A stretch of DNA of 64,000 nucleotides from Synergistaceae bacterium (GTDB lineage Bacteria > Synergistota > Synergistia > Synergistales > Aminobacteriaceae), in contig JAFSJJ010000005.1 in NCBI GenBank assembly GCA_017439345.1, forward strand, positions 1-64,000, read 5' to 3'. Position 1 is the stretch's first letter. Every line of letters begins with the position of its first letter. Positions 2,526 to 58,871 of this stretch are shown here, piece after piece. The position numbers were made by a program, and so were the translations under genes. The notes below the pieces were generated by a model. It made no database searches. It was given only the letters and a program-made list of their open reading frames with translations, and was not told where the DNA came from.

Positions 2526-3917
2526 ATGTCACTCAAGAAGTTTTTATGCATTCCCCTTGTATTAGCGTTATTGGTATTCTCTCTCTCAGGATGCGGGGGA
2601 AGTTCTCACAGTAACAACTTCAGCAGCACTGATGACACGACTGAAGAGCAGCAGAATAATCAAGAACAGCAAGACACGCAGGATCAGCAAGATCAACAGG
2701 ATAATCAACAAGAAAATCAGGACAATAACGGGACTGACAACGGCACCGACAACGGAACTGACAACGGAACTGACAACGGCACCGATGACACTACTAATGA
2801 TGATACTTCAGGCTATGATTACTCTTCGACAACAGCGGACACAAATGCAATTCTTGTCGATGATACAAGCGATACAAACGAGTACTCAAATATAACGGTC
2901 TACAAGTCAGGAAGTTCTTCACAGTCAGATAACCCTGATTTTTACGGAACTAACGCAGCTATACTTGCGAAAAACGGATTGTCGTTGACTCTTAATAATA
3001 TAACAGTTGATACGGCAGGAAGTTACGCAAATGCAGTTTTCTCATACGGCGAAGGAACTGAAATTATCATCAATGACAGCACTATAACGACCACGAGCAA
3101 TAACTCAGGCGGAATCATGGCCACTTACAACGGCGATATTACAGCTTCAAACCTGACTATAACGACTTCGGGAGGCTCATCGGCTGCAATCAGATCTGAC
3201 AGAGACGGCGGAACTATGACGGTTGACGGCGGAACTTACACGACTTCGGGAACAGGCTCACCTGTAATATACTCAACAGCGACTATAAACGTTTCAAATG
3301 CGACGCTGAAATCAACAACTGCTCAAGGAGTCGTAGTCGAAGGTAAAAATTCAGTCAGCCTGACAAACTGCACAATGACCGTAAATAATACGACTGTAAA
3401 CGGAAATCAGACTACAGAAAAACAAGCAGTGATGATTTATCAGTCCAATTCAGGCGATGCAAGCACAGGCAAGGGGGCATTCTCAATGTCTGGAGGCAGC
3501 ATAACGAATACGACCGGAGATATTTTTTATGTCACTAATACGACAGCTGATATAACACTCGACAACGTTACAATTACTAATAATGATTCATCAGGAGTCT
3601 TCTTGAAGGCAGCACTTGCAGGCTGGAGCACAACTAACGGCGGAACTGTAACACTCACAGCAAACAATCAGGATATTGACGGCGATTTTGTTGTAGATTC
3701 TGCTTCGTCCCTTACTCTTGCTCTTGGCGGCTCTTCAAGTCTTAACGGTGCAATTAACAGCGCGAAATCAGGAGCTTCAATCAGCGTAACAATCGAAAGC
3801 GGCTCAACATGGACATTAACCGGAGATTCTTACGTTACGAGCATTACTAACAACGGCACGATTAATCAGGGCAGCTATTCTCTTTACGAGAACGGCACGG
3901 CTTATACTGCAGAATAA
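2526..3917 (+). CDS. Lipoprotein with Gln/Asp/Thr linker and beta-helix domain
   Basis: A 463-residue surface lipoprotein. The N-terminus is a lipoprotein signal with lipobox LSGC (Cys23). Residues about 30-95 form a low-complexity hydrophilic linker rich in Gln, Asn and Asp, containing five GTDN units encoded by a 12-bp repeat. The rest is Thr/Ser/Asn/Gly-rich with recurring short strand patterns such as ITTSGG, TVDGGTYTTSG and ATINVSNATL, typical of right-handed parallel beta-helix (adhesin or pectate-lyase-like) folds. No catalytic site is apparent. It starts 4 bases after the aminotransferase stop, so it may be read from the same transcript. Adhesion or surface exposure is inference. Confidence 0.75.
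   Translation: MSLKKFLCIPLVLALLVFSLSGCGGSSHSNNFSSTDDTTEEQQNNQEQQDTQDQQDQQDNQQENQDNNGTDNGTDNGTDNGTDNGTDDTTNDDTSGYDYSSTTADTNAILVDDTSDTNEYSNITVYKSGSSSQSDNPDFYGTNAAILAKNGLSLTLNNITVDTAGSYANAVFSYGEGTEIIINDSTITTTSNNSGGIMATYNGDITASNLTITTSGGSSAAIRSDRDGGTMTVDGGTYTTSGTGSPVIYSTATINVSNATLKSTTAQGVVVEGKNSVSLTNCTMTVNNTTVNGNQTTEKQAVMIYQSNSGDASTGKGAFSMSGGSITNTTGDIFYVTNTTADITLDNVTITNNDSSGVFLKAALAGWSTTNGGTVTLTANNQDIDGDFVVDSASSLTLALGGSSSLNGAINSAKSGASISVTIESGSTWTLTGDSYVTSITNNGTINQGSYSLYENGTAYTAE
2727..2786 (+). repeat. 12-bp in-frame tandem repeat (GTDN codons)
   Basis: About five copies of a unit close to AACGGNACYGAC encode repeated Gly-Thr-Asp-Asn in the lipoprotein linker. Units differ at the third codon positions of Gly and Thr, so they are not all identical. 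Loss or gain of a unit would change linker length without changing frame. Confidence 0.85.
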
Positions 3918-22792: not shown

Positions 22793-24082
22793 ATGGTCAT
22801 CAATAATAATATTTCGTCACTGATAGCGTATAACTCTCTTAATGCTGTAAATAAAAAGCTCCAGAAAAGTATTAATTCGCTCTCAACGGGACTCAGAATT
22901 AATAACTCTTCAGATGATGCGGCAGGCTTTGCTATAAGTGAGAAGATTCGCTCTCAGACATCAGGACTAGCAATCGCAATGAGAAATTCACAGGATGGAG
23001 TCTCGATGCTCCAGACGGCAGAAGGTGCGCTCGGCGATATTAATTCTATGCTTCAAAGAATGCGTGAACTTGCTGTTCAGGCCAGTAATGACTCGCTGAC
23101 TTCAAACGATAGAAATTATATTCAGCTTGAGATTAACGAGTTACGTGATCAGGTTAACAGAATCGCAGGGACAACTCAATTTAACAGGAAGCGCATTCTT
23201 GATGGCAGCTCAGGGGCGTTATGGTCATCGAGCGATTTGAACGTTAAGGCAAGAATTAACAGCGGCTTGACTTACAAAGACCAGTTCGGCCAGAATATAA
23301 GCAGTGAAGGCAATTACAGAATCGAAGTCAGCACAGAACCGTGCAAAGCTCAAGTTCAGACGAGCAGTATCATGAACGTATTGAAAACAGAAACTGACTA
23401 CGGCAAAGACGCAATCCCGGAAGAAATTACTGAAACTGTAAGAACTGTTCAGACTCAGACTGTTTACATGACCGAAGAACGTTTGAACGAGACAGTCATC
23501 ACAGAAGAAGAGCCTTATACGATATATATAAACGGTTCGGACTATGATAACTCTATACCTGTTGATAACGCAACTAACGCACTCAACGAGGAAGAAGTTG
23601 AAGAGATAAGAGCTAAATGGTTCTATGATGCAGGGAAGAACGCTTTACGAATTACCAGCAGCGGAACGTTTAACATAGCAGGCAGAGTTGATTCTGCGGG
23701 GAACTCTATCCCTACTAGAACAAGAATTCTTGTAGATCCAGGCCTTGAGGACGTAAATATTTTTTTGACTGACGTAGATATAGAATATTCACTAGGCCCG
23801 GCAATGGAAACTTCAGGCTCAAAAGTCAACGTTTATCTTTCAGGGACAAATAAATTACGAAGCTCAGGCTACTATAACTACAACGAACCTGCGGGCATTC
23901 AGTGCTTGAATATCGAAGGCTCTCCTGCATCGTTGACTATAAGCAGTGCTGACGGAGACGGCCAGACAACGGGAACTCTTGACGTAATGGGTGCAGGGTG
24001 CGGAGCTGGAATCGGAGGACCATGCACGTTTTCTAACAGCTTGATTTCTCAGGCAGACGGCAATACGGGCACTATATATTAA
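22793..24082 (+). CDS. Giant flagellin, N-terminal part (ends at frameshift)
   Basis: The N-terminal 429 residues of a flagellin. Residues 1-140 are a canonical D0/D1 rod: MVINNNISSLIAYNSL, NSLSTGLRINNSSDDAAGFAISEKIRSQ and MLQRMRELAVQASNDS. After residue about 190 the sequence leaves the flagellin family and becomes an adhesin-like module (ILVDPGLEDVNIFLTDVDIE, then GAGCGAGIGG). The frame ends at TAA 24080-24082, immediately after a (TA)3 tract, while the same domain continues in another frame. I chose ATG 22793 because flagellins begin exactly there. A frame open from 22742 adds 17 residues unlike any flagellin. As sequenced, this makes a truncated protein without the C-terminal D0/D1 needed for assembly. 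Confidence 0.85.
   Translation: MVINNNISSLIAYNSLNAVNKKLQKSINSLSTGLRINNSSDDAAGFAISEKIRSQTSGLAIAMRNSQDGVSMLQTAEGALGDINSMLQRMRELAVQASNDSLTSNDRNYIQLEINELRDQVNRIAGTTQFNRKRILDGSSGALWSSSDLNVKARINSGLTYKDQFGQNISSEGNYRIEVSTEPCKAQVQTSSIMNVLKTETDYGKDAIPEEITETVRTVQTQTVYMTEERLNETVITEEEPYTIYINGSDYDNSIPVDNATNALNEEEVEEIRAKWFYDAGKNALRITSSGTFNIAGRVDSAGNSIPTRTRILVDPGLEDVNIFLTDVDIEYSLGPAMETSGSKVNVYLSGTNKLRSSGYYNYNEPAGIQCLNIEGSPASLTISSADGDGQTTGTLDVMGAGCGAGIGGPCTFSNSLISQADGNTGTIY
24073..24078 (+). repeat. (TA)3 tract at the flagellin frameshift
   Basis: TATATA sits exactly where the reading frame is lost. Adding one TA unit would turn the early stop into an in-frame continuation reading ATA TAT ATT AAA GGC GGA. 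Removing two units would also restore the frame. Confidence 0.6.
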
Positions 24083-25952
24083 AGGCGGAACAATAAGAGC
24101 TCAAGGCAGCGATGACGGAGCAGGCATAGGCTCAGGAGGATGTTACGCAACTCCGCAATTTTTAGGGAAACCAGATCCAAAAGTTTTTGTCAGAATCGAC
24201 GGCGGTGATGTAACTGCAATAGGCGGAAGAATGGCAGCAGGTATAGGCAGCGGAAACGGCAGACGAAATTATAATTGCGTAAACAGCATAAGCATCACAG
24301 GGGGAACTGTCAACGCTCAGGGAGGTCAAGGCGGTGCAGCAGGAATCGGAGGAGGTTATCAAGGCAACAGCGGGCTTATATTAATAGACAATACTCAGGC
24401 AATAGGACGAGGCCAAAACGGTTTATTGGGCGGCAGTAATGACATGGTAATTTACAGCGAATTTGAACGCGACTTGAGACCAGATGTCCCTGACAAACCG
24501 CAAATCAATTATCAATCTACAGTGTATATTCCTGAAGTCGAGACATATTCGGTACAAGTTCAGACTTTTATAGATACTACACGGACAAGAAGAGTCACTC
24601 CTCCGCCGAGTCTTGAAAACGAACTTGAAAATGTAACGCTTAATCAGTCAAACGGAGTCGAGTCTCTCAGGGCTAACGGTCTTCCTGCCGGAACTTACAC
24701 GGTCAAGACTGCGGAAAGCTATAATAATGTTCAGGCAAATTTGACAGCTTCATACGGTTTTGCTTCGAGTCCTGATAATTTCTTGAGTATCGATGCAGGA
24801 GACAACGCGGGCTTAAGCAGCTTAATCAATAACGCAAATATCTTGTTTGAAGTTACAGATGTTGACGGCTCAAACGGTTTAGTTACACTTAGGGCAACGG
24901 CCAATATCTTGAATCCTGACGGCACTCAGACGAGGCATATTGTACGCGAAAATTTGACTCTCAGAGAAGGAGACTCAACGGCTTTAAGCGGCTTAAATCT
25001 CATGGGTGAAGGTGTTGACTTTGAAATAGAAAACGCATCACCAGCAGCAAGAATTAATCTTTCAAGCGGAGCAGCTCAAAATTTCTCAGTCGGCAATAAA
25101 TTCGTCTATAATCTTACGGCTAACGTAATTTCAGAATTCCCCCGTACAATTGAAATCTCAGGGACTCAAAATCCTGAATGGACTCTTAACTGGGGCAGTG
25201 ATGTAACCCGCGAACCTGTAAGATACGGCATTGATTCACTGTCAGTTACTAACTCTGAGCTTACATTCAGCAATTTTTATCTCAACGAGTCCGACGGCAC
25301 AGTTTACGAGGGCGATATAGTTCTTACTACTAACGATAATGCATTTCAGGACGGCAGTATCTTAGCTGAATTCGATGCTCTGAGAGACAATCCTGTAACT
25401 ACGAGTTATTACACATCTGCTGACGAAAGCACTAGATTAAGCGAAATTTCAGGCTTCTACAATTCTGACGGAGTGTTCATGCTCGCTAACCCTCAGACTT
25501 TGACGATAACACAGGGCAGCGGTCAGAGTGCTTCAATAACTATTTACTCCGGCGATACAATAGGGGATATCCGCGAGAAACTTAACGACGCAATAGCAAA
25601 TGGTCTCGGCCAAGCAAGATATACTGATTCAAATAATAATTTCGTGAGCTTCGTAACTGATGCCCAGAATCAGGGACTAGAGTCAGTTGCAGGGACGTTC
25701 GTAATTCGTTCAGCAATTCCAGGCCGAACCGGTGAACTGTCCTTTTCCGGTGATGAAGATTTATTAAATGCATTGGGATTAAATACGATTCAGGCTTCAA
25801 GCGAGAGCACTTACACAGCAAACGTATATGAAGCTCATTCGGGGAAACCTATAGCTCTTAACGTGAAATCTTATGATAATGAATTCCCGAGTCTTATTCC
25901 ACCTGAAATTGATATAAGAGTCGATGCCATAGCAGGACTTAAATCAACATAG
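24081..25952 (+). pseudogene. Giant flagellin, middle part (adhesin-like insert)
   Basis: The continuation of the flagellin in the other frame, about 620 residues up to an amber codon at 25950-25952. It opens with a Gly-rich repeat module: IKGGTIRAQG, DDGAGIGSGGC, GRMAAGIGSGNG, ISITGGTVNAQGG, AAGIGGGYQG. This is the GAGIGGG beta-helix style seen in adhesins of gut bacteria. Further on, several beta-rich segments resemble flagellin D2/hook-IN modules (for example FRSAIPGRTGELSFSG-like text and ESTYTANVYEAHSGKPIAL). An internal ATG at 24231 is in frame, but I see no reason to think translation starts there. Confidence 0.75.
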
Positions 25953-26420
25953 AACGAAAGCACTAAGGCATTCATGTTAGTCAAAGATAATTCTGATTCA
26001 TACTCTGCAATAGTTCACCTGAAAGACAACACTACGATTTTGCAGACAGGAGCAAATAACGGCGAAGACTTTATGATTCAATTAGGAGACACATCGAGCT
26101 TTGCACTTGGAATCGATAGCGTTAATCTTTTAACCCGCGAAACTGCCTCACGTTCAATAACGATTCTTGACAGAGCAATAAACAGGGTATCGACTCAGCG
26201 TGCCAAAATCGGAGCATATAATAACGCACTTGAATACACTATAGAAAATCTCACGAACGAGAATATGAATTTAACTGCTGCTGACTCAAGAATTCATGAC
26301 GCTGATATGGCTCTAGAGATGATGAACTTTGTCAAATATCAAATCTTGAATCAGTCCGGGACATCAATGCTTGCTCAGGCTAATAATCTGCCTCAGTCAG
26401 TGTTGAGTCTAATGCAGTAA
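25953..26420 (+). pseudogene. Giant flagellin, C-terminal D1/D0 part
   Basis: This stretch is in the same frame as the preceding part but after an amber codon (TAG 25950-25952). It encodes the canonical flagellin C-terminus: ITILDRAINRVSTQRAKIGAYNNALE, ENLTNENMNLTAADSRIHDADMALEMM and the final MLAQANNLPQSVLSLMQ. With both lesions repaired, the three parts make one flagellin of about 1,200 residues. TAG is an ordinary stop elsewhere in the window (ulaG), so recoding is unlikely. Conservation of the D0/D1 termini suggests that the lesions are recent, reversible, or errors. Confidence 0.8.
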
Positions 26421-26558: not shown

Positions 26559-29500
26559 TTATCTTTTCTTTCTGAATGCCTTAAAGCTGCTCAGTAATAA
26601 CGCAAACGTTATCAAGCCGAGTCCCGTGTTGCAGCCGCCGCTTGAAGAAGTCATTATATTATTTCCGCTGATGCCTTCACTGTTCGCAGAGTCAAACGTC
26701 AAGACTTCAGCTTCTTCCCATTCATCACCGTCCGCAGATTTCTTAACGGTTATCTCAAAGTCTCCTTTAGGTGTCAAGCCTGCTATTGAGCTTACTGTTA
26801 CAATAGCCTCTTTGCCGTAGTTGCTGGGTGTAAATTCGTCCTCGCTGACAGTCTGAAGGGTAATATCAAGATAATCTCTGTCATCTGAGGCAGCATTATC
26901 CGCGTCAGACGTTAAAGCACTATCTTTCTTTACGCTCGAAATTATCCAGAAAACATTTTCATTTGCCCTGAGAGTGTAAGTTTTCGTTGCTGAGGTTGAA
27001 ACTATATTGTCAGGAATTTCCTCAAGTTCAAAATTAGGATCTTCGCCCTCGTAAAATTCTTCGTCAGAGGAAAGTATTTCGTCTTCAGTAATATTCTTTA
27101 TTCCGAACGTGATTAAATCTGCCTTAGCTGTTATATTTTCTGCATCTTTTATTAACTCTGCCGGCGAGATGGTGAATTTAACCTGGTTGTTTCCGTTGAA
27201 GAGTGCAATATCCTGCAGCATAAATACGTCCTCTACATCTTCGAAACTGAGATCATCGAGATTAACTATAGTATTAATACTTGCACCTGGAATTTTCTGC
27301 TTCCCTGACTGCGTTAATATATAGCCGACAAAGAAAGAATACGGGGTTTCAGGGCCGTTATAATTGAAATTCGCCGTTATAGGTACAAATGATTCGTCTT
27401 TATGCTCGAGAATGAAAGCTGCCATATCGTTTATTCTGCTGCCGTCAGCGTCAGTGAAGTACAAAGGAGTTAGGCTTACTGCGTCAGATGCATTTGCGCT
27501 GATTGACACTTCAGGATCACCAACATTATAGACGTAGAACGGATAAAAGCCCGTGTTATTTCCGCCGTAATCGTTAATCCTGCCGCTTGAGTAACGCGCC
27601 TCGTGAACTTCGTCTATATTATTTCCGGAGTCAACTTCGACATAGAGATAATATGCTTTCTTAGTTGTTGTAGAAGATGTGAGATTCGGTGTCCAGTTGA
27701 ATACTGCCCAGCCCTTGTTATTATTCTTGTCGTTGTTCCAGCCGCCGAGAGTCACGGTTACTTCTCCAATCTTGTGCTTGTCATTCTCTGTTATAGAAGA
27801 AAGATTGTTTATATTATCTATCCATGAGAGTTTGACTGTGAAATTTCCTGTATCCTTGAAGCTGGCGTTGTACAGAGGTACCCGAATTTCATAATTCTGT
27901 CCGTTCGCAAGCCTGTTATCTGTTAAGAAAGCAAAATCCGGAGCGTAGAATTTAATTCCCCTGATCTTCATTGCTGTCTCATCGTCAGTGTTAGCCCTGA
28001 AAGTGCTGCCGTCCTTAACGAACTTCAACGGAAGGTATAAAGCAGGGTCGGACTTCTGTTGATATAGACTGCTGCTGCGCCATAATTTAGCATTATTAGT
28101 GAGTTCTACAGCTGTTGCAAACGTCATAGCTCCTTCTTTTGCGACAAACGGCTGCATTTTGACCGTATAATTTGCTGCCTGCATAGATGTAAGATTTGAG
28201 CTGCCCATTAAACTGTAGCTGATTTTTTCGGTCTTGTTGTATTCCTTCGAGAACGTTTTCGGGTTATCACTGTCAGGCATTTTTATTCCTGTGGCTTTGT
28301 CTCCGTTAAAGAGCCTGTCAAAGAAACATACAGTTGAAGTAAACCCGCTCGGAGTAACTTTTGTTTCGGTGTGCTGCATATTACTCGCAGCTTTTGTGAA
28401 AGTAATTCCCGAAATGTCTGACGCGCTTCCGAATGTCCAAGTGTTCTCACCTGCGAGAAGTCCTGCCTCGTTATAACCTTCGACATCTGCAACGTGGGGC
28501 GGATATGAGAAGAAGTTACCCTCTTCATGAAGCGGTTGATACACAGAATCAGCTACTGAAGTTGACGTGTTAAGCGCAGAGTTTTCGCTCATTGTGAACG
28601 TTATGAAAAGCTCTTTGTCTCCCTTAACGGTGCCGGGGTCTTCAATTTGTGTAGAGTCAATTCTAGGTCCAAAAGCAAGCCACGTCGGGAGGGGTCTAGT
28701 CAGAACAGGATAACGCCATATATGCCTTGCAGTGTTGGTGAATAAAATTGCATCGTGAGTCGTTGCTGTAACGTTCTTGTCAATCGTTGTCGTTGATGTA
28801 TCACCGTTGGTATTCTCGTTAATTCTGTCGACTCTGTCCGTAAAGAAGTCCATCAAATCAGTAAGTCCTTCTGTCGGGCTGTCAGGCTTCCAGACCATGT
28901 TTTTCTTTTCTTCTGTAGTCATATTATCGATTTTTATACCGTGAGCAATACCGCCGATTGCAGATGCAAATCCTACAAGCCCCTTTACTGTTGCAAATGT
29001 TCCCTGTACTTTCTCGTCAGTTCCGGTAGGGTCAGCCGCAAACATTGTTTCAACAGACTGGCTCAAGTCCTGCTTTACTGTGTTTGTAGTGGAATCAGTC
29101 GTCGTTTTTCCGTATTCAACAGTCATATTACCGCCGTTAGAAGCATCGCTGTACGTGAAGTTTACGGGCTGTTCAGTGAGTGCCGTTCCATTCTCGTCTA
29201 CCGTATCAACGTGATAGGGAATTGCACTAAGAGCAGCAATATAACTTCTGTTTGACTTCTTCCTGATGTGTACAGGTGTACCGAGTTCAACACCCTCGCT
29301 TGCAAAATCAGCAGCTATGAGTCCGCGCCATGTCCCTCCGGATTTAGTATCCTGAATTGCGATTTTCCCATCTTCGAAACCGTCAAAAATTTTATTGCCT
29401 TTATCATCGGCTGTAACTTTTGTCTTGAAGATCGTTACGCAGTCAATACCGCCCGGCTTCTTCCACGCTACAGCAATATCATCAACTGTCTTGAATGTGC

Positions 29501-31203
29501 CGAGTGTACCAGTGAAAGCCCCTGCAGCTATCGAGAAATCAGTCAGAGCATACATGTGTGTTATGCCCTCAGGATTTATCCCCTCGTTCTTGTTTAAGTG
29601 CTCTAATGCTGGTACGTCTGTCCAAAAGCAGAAGCGATCCAAGTGAGGCTGATCCATAAGGAGCCTTTTGTCTTTGTCCTGAGCGAGGTCATACAGCGGA
29701 CCGTAATTATATTTTGAGCTTTCGCCTCCGCCCTTTACGTGAGCATCATCATGAACCGGTGTCAGCGGATTCTTCGAATCTGAACTATTATCGAATTTCC
29801 AGACAGTAAGATGCGGGTAAGCGCAGAACTCATCTTCTCTGGAAGGGAATTGTCCTTCGGCGTTCCACACCTTACGATGAAAATATCCGAGCAGAAGAGT
29901 AACAATCTCGTCCTTGCCATCGCCGTCGAGGTCAGCCGCAGCCGCTCTCAATCCTGCAACTCCAGCAACTTTTGCGCAGGGATTTAAATCGAAAGTACCA
30001 TTGATAAGCTCTTCTTTATTGTATGCCTTAGCGGTCTCTGTTGTGTCGAAGTCACGTTTCTCGGCGTTCCACTTATGAATTTTACAGTGTATTGCGCCTG
30101 TCATTGGTCCGTTCGGCCAGCCCTTTTCGTTCGCGAGGCTTGGGGCTCTGACTGGAATTTTGAAAAGTAAAGCAATTTCGCTCGTGCCGTCTCCGTCAAA
30201 ATCTCCTGCTACCATATCTGTTACCGGCTGGCTTTCAAGATCATTCCCCCACTGATCTGTGGCGAAAACGTGAATCCCGCTTGGATCGCCAAGAGACTTC
30301 AGCTCCAATTTTCCGTTTGAGAAAATCAATCTGTAAACGAAAATATAAATATCATTTCTCGTGTTAATCATCAGGGCTGCTTCGTTGTTATGTTTATCTC
30401 CGTCAAAATCTCCGACTGCAAGCGATACGATTTTCATATCACCTCTGAAAGGAGTTTCGTTCGTCAATGCAGTTAAAGGCTCCTGAGTCATTTTGCCTTC
30501 ACTGTCAGCGTTGAGTGCGAAAAATTCAAGCCGTATTGCCTTATCAAGCTGAGACGGGTTATTCGGACCTGAAGCAGCTACAAAAATTTCACGATCATAG
30601 CCCTTGACTTCCATAACACCTGTTCCAAATACCTGAACTACAAAACCTGAGTGCACATTTGAAAACGCAGGCAGTGTATATTCTCCGAAATCCGAAATTT
30701 GGACGGAATTAACAAGCTCGCTCGGTGTCGTTCCTGTTGTATGAGATGTCCTGTTATTAGAAAGAGTCTTGAAGTAATACTTAGCTTCGCCGTTGGGAGC
30801 TAAATTATGATACATCAATGCCCGTTTGCCGTTGTAGAGTCTGCGCGATACAGCAGGTCTGAGATAGTGAGGCTCCTGTGCGCTCCAAGAAAACTGGCGT
30901 GAAGCATTTGAATTATGAAAAATTGTCCGTGTCGATAATGAAGTGTCTTTGCCAAACGTCGTAGCGAATACATCAACATCATCAATTTTGTCTCCGCCTC
31001 TGATGGTGATTAGACCCTTCTTAGCGAGTGTGAGTTCACCGTTCACTTCTTTGACAACGTCGTCAACATCTCCGATTGCTTTACCGTTGATTGTCTGCGC
31101 TGCCTCAGAAATTACCCCCCCCCCCCATGTAGGGAGAAATACTTAATAGAGCAGATAATACTAACACAGAGAAAAACTTAAGATTAACTTTAACTTTTTG
31201 CAT
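26559..31203 (-). CDS. Large Synergist-CTERM surface protein, out of frame at a G12 tract
   Basis: A surface protein of about 1,540 residues. The main frame (26559-31046 and some way upstream) has FG-GAP/VCBS-like loops (VGDFDGDKHNNEA, AGDFDGDGTSEIALLF, AADLDGDGKDEIVTLL), a long beta-rich middle, and ends in GGCNTGLGLITFALLLSS plus a basic tail, a Synergist-CTERM-type sorting signal. Its own signal peptide starts at ATG 31203 after an AGGAGG site (MQKVKVNLKFFSVLVLSALL). That frame meets a run of 12 G residues and stops 4 codons past the expected join. With 11 G the two frames fuse and read through MGGGVISEAAQ. In the state shown the gene should be off. The alternative start GTG 31046 would give an unexported protein and has no good ribosome-binding site. 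Confidence 0.85.
31115..31126 (-). repeat. G12 homopolymer in the coding region (candidate phase switch)
   Basis: Twelve consecutive C on the plus strand (G on the coding strand) lie between the signal-peptide frame and the body of the surface protein. 11 or 14 G puts them in frame, while 12 (as here) or 13 does not. Confidence 0.9.
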
Positions 31204-57440: not shown

Positions 57441-58871
57441 CTATTCTACCCCCCCCCCCCTTCTCGTATTAAATACTAATCCTATTGCCGTCCAGATTAT
57501 TAATAAGATATAAGACTCATTGCTAAGTGAGACATTGAGACCAGGAATTGGAACGAGAAGCAATACTCCCATTGAGAGAGAAAATATAAAGCCTAATGCT
57601 CCGAATATGATTATGTCGATTCGTTTTTCTTTGAAAGCATATTTACACGCTGATATTGAAGTGTAGGCAAATCCTATTGAAGCTCCTATCGAGGCCATAT
57701 CGAACACCCAGCCCATGACAGCACGCCCTAACAGACACGTAGCACCTGATACAAAGGCGCAGAACATTCCTGCATGAGTGGGGACTCCGTGTTTATTGAG
57801 ATAACCGAACCATGAGGGAATCATTTTATCTCTTGACATCGCGTAAAGAAGTCTGCTCGTTGCCGTGTAGAAGCCTATTATTCCAGTGAACATTGCAGTT
57901 AATACAGAAGCAGTGATTAAATATAATCCGTATTTGCCCATGACTGAATTAGCTGCATTTAGAGTCGGTATTGCCCGGACTCCTGAGAGATTCCCTAAGT
58001 CATCGATATAGTCAACCCAGCTGACATAGCCGTTAGGGATAACTGAAGCTGCAAGAAAAGTCAATGCGATATAAACGAACACTCCGCATAAAATACTTGT
58101 ATCCATGACAATTTTTGTGCTCTCGGGCGAGAAGTCCGACTCTTCCATTAACTGAGGCACAGTGTCAAAGCCTACGAACGATTGAGGCCCCGTTACATAG
58201 ACTGCAATGATCTGAGCGAATATTCCCTTAGTAAAGATCGAAGTCTCAGGGTGAAACATGGGAAGCATATTCTCAGCCGTTGAATTCGGACTGAACACAG
58301 CTCCTGACATGACGATTAATATTCCGCCCAGCAAAATCATAACGAATAGAGTCTGGAGTCTTCCTGTGAACTGGACTCCCCGTGAGTCAATCAAAGCAAA
58401 GATAATTAACGCCGACAGAGCTATTAACATTTCGCCTGAATATACTTCATAGCCTGCAATTTCGTAATGAAGTCCGAACCTGAACACGTCCCCGAAGACT
58501 GCACGCAATATTAAATTCAATGCCGTAGCGTTCAACGGGATAACAGATAGATACGAGAGACTCAAGAACCATGCGCATATAAATCCGTGATGGACTCCGA
58601 AAGCCCGCTTTGCATAGATAAACTCTCCGCCTGTCATTGGAAATTTCTTTATCATGTAACTGTAACTGTACGAGATGATAAGCATTACGAAGGCAGCAAT
58701 CTGCATAGCTATCAGAGTCCCGAGAGGCCCTGCATTCTTCAGAAAGAGATTACCAGGCATTACGAAAGCACTCCAGCCGATTACGCACCCGAATGCCAGC
58801 GACCATACGTTTAACGGAGTGAGTCTTCTGTTGAGATGTACTTCATCTGAGCTAAAGTTAAAGAACAGCAT
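57441..58871 (-). CDS. APC-family amino acid permease (copy 1)
   Basis: A 476-residue APC transporter paralogous to the next gene: LNVWSLAFGCVIGWSAFVMPGNLFL, FPMTGGEFIYAKRAFGVHHG and VGFDTVPQLMEESDFSPE. In helix 1 the usual GSG break reads GWS, a difference from its paralogue at the substrate-binding site. The C-terminus ends in RRGGGVE, encoded by a run of 12 G just before the stop, so its tail and its spacing to the next gene depend on that tract. The two genes are probably a tandem duplication with diverged specificity. Confidence 0.9.
   Translation of the reverse strand: MLFFNFSSDEVHLNRRLTPLNVWSLAFGCVIGWSAFVMPGNLFLKNAGPLGTLIAMQIAAFVMLIISYSYSYMIKKFPMTGGEFIYAKRAFGVHHGFICAWFLSLSYLSVIPLNATALNLILRAVFGDVFRFGLHYEIAGYEVYSGEMLIALSALIIFALIDSRGVQFTGRLQTLFVMILLGGILIVMSGAVFSPNSTAENMLPMFHPETSIFTKGIFAQIIAVYVTGPQSFVGFDTVPQLMEESDFSPESTKIVMDTSILCGVFVYIALTFLAASVIPNGYVSWVDYIDDLGNLSGVRAIPTLNAANSVMGKYGLYLITASVLTAMFTGIIGFYTATSRLLYAMSRDKMIPSWFGYLNKHGVPTHAGMFCAFVSGATCLLGRAVMGWVFDMASIGASIGFAYTSISACKYAFKEKRIDIIIFGALGFIFSLSMGVLLLVPIPGLNVSLSNESYILLIIWTAIGLVFNTRRGGGVE
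57449..57460 (-). repeat. G12 homopolymer at the end of permease copy 1
   Basis: Twelve consecutive C on the plus strand (G on the coding strand). With 12 the gene ends GGGVE-stop. With 11 it stops two residues earlier. With 13 it runs about 17 codons further, into the start of the next gene. It is the second G12 tract in the window. Confidence 0.9.

Follow-up and report, generated by a model that had tools for sequence, protein, structure and literature searches.

The gene at positions 22793–26420 of the window (the whole stretch of 64,000 nucleotides analysed here, from a Synergistaceae genome) is, to judge from its reading frames, a decayed gene, a dead member of a live family of flagellins. 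This family is probably one of display flagellins, in which a swappable domain, either a beta-helix of the Cthe_2159 type or a VWA domain, is carried on a stalk, and in which some copies have a poly-G switch. As the window copy is broken, it is evidence for a family and not for a working filament protein.

The window flagellin and its lesions

The earlier note on this DNA had described flagellin D0/D1 ends enclosing a long insert with a beta-helix and hook-IN-like modules. In Pfam scans the two ends of the gene match Flagellin_N (PF00669, 143 bits) and Flagellin_C (PF00700, 93 bits), both above the cut-off, and Beta_helix_3 matches three stretches in the middle (coordinates and E-values are given in Table 1). 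A profile of the module, 408 positions long and derived from intact relatives, matches the window twice, with positions 1–223 (E 2.1e-58) and 222–385 (E 5.8e-25), and the two pieces abut at a frame change. The flagellin ends and the beta-helix between them are thus confirmed. The hook-IN-like modules were dropped as a firm domain, the Flagellin_IN match being weak (15.9 bits, with 22.7 required), and what stands of them is an IN-like domain recognized by a genus-specific profile. An ordinary D2/D3 domain, the obvious alternative for the insert, was also dropped, as no such family is matched in the Pfam scans of the window gene or of its relatives. A misjoining of D0/D1 ends from two genes is ruled out by uninterrupted relatives in one open reading frame (ORF), two of them in the same genome. 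With the flagellinolysin model of NCBIfam (flagella_HExxH) the gene scores 51 bits (cut-off 205), the match being confined to the common C-terminal part.

The gene is not read in a single frame. The first frame runs into a stop within a short AT run, the adjacent frame is open from there on, and an in-frame TAG follows 1.9 kb further downstream; bridged over both breaks, the gene comprises 1208 codons. The position of the frame change in an AT run would suit the view that the cell has an undamaged gene and the breaks arose in assembly, but we consider this unlikely, given the second, unrelated lesion and the state of another display flagellin of the same genome (C8), which is also in pieces. 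Moreover, interruptions are found in 5 of 43 display flagellins and in none of 85 other flagellins (p 0.0036), and such a concentration in the display class is not expected of random sequencing error. The 43 display flagellins comprise the 41 classed as helix or VWA (see below), L101, and the window copy; the six unclassed ORFs were excluded, the pieces of C8 fell under the length limit and were not counted, and truncations at contig ends were not scored as interruptions. Single in-frame stops occur in display flagellins of other genomes (L174, 4253, TGA; L180, 4070, TGA; L179, 2316, TAG). Recoding of the in-frame stops was considered and dropped, since the stops elsewhere stand at differing sites and comprise two TGA and one TAG.

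Fold of the helix module

The structure was predicted not for the window copy but for a relative, L169, from the goat-rumen genome RGIG3696. Its module and stalk, folded from 19 relatives, reached a predicted local distance difference test (pLDDT) of 90.5 and a predicted template modelling score (pTM) of 0.83. The predicted fold is a beta-helix placed between two stalk strands, residues 2–24 (23 residues) and 325–346 (22 residues). For the full-length protein the pTM is 0.41, and the relative placing of the domains was therefore not relied on.

In the comparison with VIA-align the L169 module is closest to Cthe_2159 (4peu and 4phb), with a Z of 23.3 and a root-mean-square deviation of 2.9 and 2.8, respectively, over 222 residues at 25% identity, while the next unrelated row, pectate lyase Pel9A, has a Z of 12.2. 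Foldseek ranks the same two entries first (E 4e-3 and 1.3e-2), and taken alone it gives no match for the L169 module at E 0.001. A profile of 28 modules searched against the PDB sequences finds 4peu/4phb at E 3.1e-5 and nothing else below E 0.5. According to the consulted parts of PMC6712302, Cthe_2159 is a beta-helix which, like other proteins with its domain, binds cellulose and polygalacturonic acid, and rumen fungi presumably obtained the domain from rumen bacteria. The likeness would fit a rumen organism, without proving the function here, and the modelled fold points to glycan binding. Of the adhesin-displaying flagellin claimed earlier, the family part is supported, by intact relatives and a fold of glycan-binding type, and the part that concerns the window copy is not, the gene being broken.

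Cthe_2159 resembles lyases of family PL9, and with Pel9A as the second-best fold match the helix might be thought of as a filament-borne polysaccharide lyase. This seems very improbable, because the near-invariant positions of the module consist mainly of Gly, Ile, Ala, and Asn, among which no catalytic set is apparent, and Cthe_2159 itself is presented as a binding protein in what was consulted of its description (PMC6712302).

Distribution of the family

Flagellin_N is matched 14 times in the genome of the window (2.54 Mb, 98% complete), including some weak matches and some fragments. This genome contains two intact helix flagellins, C6 (1202 amino acids) and C16 (941 amino acids), an intact VWA flagellin, C41 (755 amino acids), and a flagellin of 698 amino acids with a short partial helix (C36); Flagellin_N and Flagellin_C are present within one protein in C6 and others. 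Flagellins of the genus, taken from among the matches listed (a few truncated or duplicate ones were omitted), were combined with those of this genome into a set of 131 loci (L035–L165), from which 154 ORFs carrying the N-terminal profile were obtained, both ends being present in 114. The 132 ORFs of at least 350 amino acids were sorted by their insert into helix (29), VWA (12), other (59), short (26), and unclassed (6). The layout is constant in nearly all, with the N-terminal part extending to about residue 200, the module from about residue 205–270, then an IN-like domain and the C-terminal part; in long VWA members the range for the module extends to about residue 400. All assemblies used are drafts, mostly derived from metagenomes.

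Some match to the module profile was found in 117 of the 185 Synergistota genomes surveyed, many of these matches being restricted to the flagellin part (about positions 1–60), and matches that include the module, at E 1e-50 or better, are present in 27 of the 43 genomes of the genus. Outside the genus, the search for the same fusion was successful in five further genera, where the N-terminus and the helix lie in one ORF (L238, L239, L240, L241, L243, and twice in L245); the genomes checked were G114, G112, G081, G166 (of another family), and two with a common genus code, G101 and G100. The two flagellins of L245 (G100) face each other, measure 1259 and 1278 amino acids, and have many more helix repeats. 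The helix also occurs in ORFs without flagellin ends (e.g. L246 and L253), a possible source of the module. Among the sources of the named matches are the rumen, reticulum, and abomasum of goats, sheep, red deer, and others, and these matches are filed as Synergistaceae, Synergistales, or Fretibacterium.

Exchange of modules

The VWA domain of C41 matches PF00092 at E 1.2e-10 (42.4 bits, cut-off 23.8), and its relatives likewise carry VWA. The DxSxS motif, the metal-site motif of VWA, is present in all 12 VWA modules, and the TD motif in all eleven that are long enough.

Replacement of one helix by another is seen at L036 (G007, goat rumen) and L038 (G020, sheep), which are one locus, near-identical over about 7 kb. 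Around the helix, 4147 bp are 98.2% and 2241 bp are 97.3% identical. In the flagellin the synonymous divergence (dS) is 0.093 for residues 1–330 and 0.082 for residues 601–1211, and it reaches 1.019 for residues 331–600. This tenfold rise in one sharp-edged stretch, which point change under selection would not produce, demonstrates on sequence grounds that the helix at this locus was replaced whole by recombination. In L038 (2008–3306), and in L036 as well, a gene of about 345 amino acids is flanked by two copies of the initial 117 bp of the flagellin, with the repeat in L036 starting one base before the ATG. This gene has two similar halves and no family match, and L037 has a relative of it upstream of its flagellin; the arrangement resembles an insertion that restores the start of the gene it enters.

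Helix and VWA also alternate. At a locus between a MATE-like transporter gene (read by eye from the translated end of the upstream ORF) and a 16S ribosomal RNA (rRNA) gene (likewise read by eye, from its conserved 5' sequence), the flagellin has a helix in C6 and in G016, and VWA in G027 (L125). On the upstream flank C6 matches G016 over 308 bp at 74% and G027 over 211 bp at 70%, and on the downstream flank about 200 bp match at 77–79%; the latter alone is weak evidence, since there may be several rRNA operons. A second pair matching on both flanks is L050 (VWA) and L078 (helix), with 229 bp at 81% and 674 bp at 83%, and L115, a helix copy truncated where its contig ends, matches this locus upstream (249 bp, 81%). 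Three further pairs match on one flank only. The module type thus differs between species at the two loci compared on both flanks. In L035, L036, L038, L039, L045, L046, and L047 a display flagellin immediately precedes an apparent 16S rRNA gene start, where the contigs often end.

On a D0/D1 tree (residues 1–195) the type changes between helix and VWA at least 9 times among the 42 display rows, which is close to what random labels give (mean 10.5, range 6–12, in 200 shuffles), whereas all four insert classes on the same tree change 17 times against a mean of 59.7 in 100 shuffles. At two core flagellin loci, whose syntenic groups have 19 to 25 members, the insert type is kept except in a few rows that are only loosely joined.

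These comparisons bear on the proposal that the inserts are bulky structural outer domains, which thicken or stiffen the filament without binding anything and vary by drift. Among the flagellins listed, lengths of 750–1000 amino acids are usual in this order, and giant flagellins give thick filaments in two marine bacteria and are recorded in Synergistetes too, according to the consulted parts of PMC6248924. We nevertheless hold a purely structural role to be decidedly unlikely: the helix is far closer to a polysaccharide-binding protein than to other helices (see the Z values above), VWA retains its DxSxS throughout, and in the same genomes the insert of core flagellins stays of one kind at syntenic loci, in contrast to the exchanges seen in the display class.

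Poly-G leaders

The 577 kb of flagellin loci contain 9 tracts of at least 8 G or C, 8 of which immediately precede a flagellin start of the display-chassis type; that of L036 precedes the truncated copy of the flagellin start, and that of L043 (first gene) precedes a flagellin of 1199 amino acids whose insert is neither helix nor VWA. A pattern search with two spacings through the 43 genomes of the genus added one more leader (G093:C37), and the reversed patterns gave no match in the same genomes. In the nine leaders the tract, G8 to G13, is part of a short frame that has a ribosome-binding-like site of its own. For eight of them one phase of the tract takes the leader to a stop codon that shares the sequence ATGA with the flagellin start, and in the other phases the leader ends 13 to 75 nt earlier; the coupling frame is open in 8 of 9 cases and the other frames in 1 of 18 (Fisher, 3.5e-5). 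L125 and L054 are in the coupling phase as assembled; the overlaps of the L054 and L049 leaders, which end alike, were flagged by a loose-pattern scan. A simple tract that sets the reading frame, one mark of a phase-variable locus, is thus present at the leader loci and absent at the window flagellin. The poly-G leader looks like a phase-variation switch, in which the length of the tract would vary and would control translation.

The leaders resemble contingency loci of surface genes, and the exposed helix is the sole difference between L036 and L038, a locus otherwise 97–98% identical. Both observations would agree with a helix varied for escape from flagellum-binding phages or host antibodies, ligand binding being secondary. 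As the principal cause this appears rather unlikely, for the swap to a wholly different adhesion-type domain (VWA) exceeds what a change of epitopes needs; the two causes could also act together.

Several observations weigh against a family of switchable display flagellins with a Cthe_2159-type helix. At E 1 or better, the Pfam model of Cthe_2159 (PF14262) matches no more than 4 of 19 modules (best 1.4e-4), and the L169 module used for the fold scores 14.6 bits against the curated cut-off of 25.8; for these reasons we call the helix a relative, and not a filed member, of the Cthe_2159 family. In draft assemblies the repeat-rich helix could be misjoined. One partner of each locus compared on both flanks is interrupted in its assembly, namely L125, which supplies the VWA at the MATE-rRNA locus, and the helix copy L078. 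Many forks of the D0/D1 tree, which was quickly built, are weak. As for the leaders, the tract locus L042 does not fit the coupling pattern, 36 of the 41 helix or VWA flagellins lack a leader tract of at least 6 G, and no poly-G leader was found upstream of the window flagellin. Coupled leaders belong to 4 of the 41 helix or VWA flagellins and 1 of the 85 others (the first gene of L043), which is a modest enrichment (p 0.038).

The genome of the window has 140 overlapping G9 matches, compared with about 3.4 start sites expected from its base composition. One phase reads on in 19 of 35 of its tracts of G9 or longer and at 185 of 400 random window positions; a reading-on phase being about as common at random positions, the number of tracts alone speaks for contingency loci, in which the genome looks rich by its sequence. 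The tracts often lie in frames that, by eye, resemble those of sugar-nucleotide or glycosyl-transferase enzymes or of exported proteins (L292, L302, L296, L287, L288, L298, and L300).

Proposed mechanism and relation to known systems

In intact members the D0/D1 ends would polymerize into the filament, as expected from what is known of the family, and the long two-stranded stalk is predicted to lift a separate domain, the helix of polysaccharide-binding type or VWA, off the filament surface. FliG is present as a single copy in 27 of the 28 genus genomes searched, and a single motor set with many flagellins suggests that display flagellins enter the core filaments, partly or along certain stretches, so that stalk and helix would project outward from a shared filament. 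Many copies of an adhesive domain per filament could then hold the cell to plant fibre or rumen glycans. The module is swapped whole by recombination among related bacteria, with the chassis and stalk retained, as is shown at one locus and, in the form of a changed module type, at others. In some copies the poly-G tract in the short leader frame, judging from the frame structure, probably toggles translation, the leader being coupled to the start of the flagellin. That display flagellins assemble, bind, switch, and confer a benefit is inferred. A broader picture, against which we would lean slightly, is that the filaments are racks of interchangeable, randomly switched adhesion domains, with several display flagellins per genome, modules moving between chassis and species, and poly-G leaders choosing among them in each cell, so that the population samples many surfaces. 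Flagella are usually seen as propellers with variable decoration. If the proposal holds, the filament would be evolving as a general display scaffold, one in which a cassette junction occurs naturally and is combined with a stalk design and an on/off switch of translation, and motile rumen bacteria would have a way to grip fibre.

Domain-bearing, giant, and VWA flagellins are already known. A survey of hypervariable-region domains counts 61 domains, with vWFA in 21 flagellins, in the parts that we compared (Eckhard 2017, PMC5595980). As in the flagellinolysins treated in those parts, a foreign domain occupies the flagellin hypervariable region and would be displayed along the filament; unlike them, the display flagellins have no metallopeptidase. 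A Cthe_2159-type helix is not among the ten commonest domains there, and the same parts do not describe module exchange at one locus or a poly-G leader. Giant flagellins, as presented in the consulted parts of Thomson 2018 (PMC6248924), also exceed 1000 amino acids, with Synergistetes among the phyla named, but their inserts have no similarity to known domains and grew by duplication of one region and a novel insert, whereas interchangeable known folds are found here. With Cthe_2159 of Clostridium thermocellum the module shares fold and sequence profile; that protein is a separate one, whereas the module lies within a flagellin and has GAGIGGG turns and a stalk. The poly-G phase-variable loci of Campylobacter are likewise simple tracts, many per genome and in reading frames, and differ, in the parts of PMC6321876 consulted, from the tract here, which lies in a leader frame ending on the flagellin start codon. 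EtpA, described in the consulted parts of PMC10284417 as a beta-helical adhesin linking the flagella of E. coli with glycans of the host, is similarly a beta-helix serving the flagellum in adhesion, but it is a separate secreted protein, while the helix here belongs to the flagellin itself. A Cthe_2159-type helix in a flagellin, a helix-for-VWA exchange at one locus, and a poly-G leader ending on the flagellin start were not found in the literature searched, which covers few subscription journals.

Features of the window

Table 1. Parts of the flagellin gene in the window, in order of position
Feature	Coordinates	Strand	Basis
Flagellin D0/D1 N-terminal part (Flagellin_N), first reading frame	22793..23209	+	PF00669, residues 3-139, E 8.1e-42; frame 22793-24082
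Outgoing stalk strand	23420..23512	+	similarity to predicted stalk strand E2-24 of folded relative L169
Cthe_2159-like beta-helix module, split by the frame change	23618..24392	+	profile matches 23240-24076 and 24069-24542; Beta_helix_3, E 4.2e-9
Lesion 1, frame change within short AT run	24074..24083	+	stop of frame 1 at 24080-24082, next frame open from about 24081
Returning stalk strand	24516..24599	+	similarity to predicted strand E325-346 of folded relative L169
Extra domain of long (about 1100-1200 amino acids) members	24600..25355	+	family alignment; no match in Pfam scans of the window gene and relatives
IN-like domain common to flagellins of the genus	25437..25949	+	Flagellin_IN, E 0.015; genus-specific profile, found in most members
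Lesion 2, in-frame TAG stop	25950..25952	+	reading frame
Flagellin C-terminal part (Flagellin_C)	25953..26420	+	PF00700, E 1.5e-26

Elsewhere in the window, positions 2526–3917 encode a protein with a lipoprotein-like start and N-G-T-D repeats and no Pfam match. Adjoining the flagellin, on the minus strand, is a gene for an FG-GAP protein (26559–31203, E 1.7e-7), which, read by eye, has a signal-peptide-like start at 31203. A G12 tract (31115–31126) lies in the start of this gene; the assembled frame stops just past the tract, and another phase enters a frame of 1495 amino acids. A second G12 tract in the window (57449–57460) is located at the 3' end of a permease gene (57441–58871), a few bases before the next permease start.

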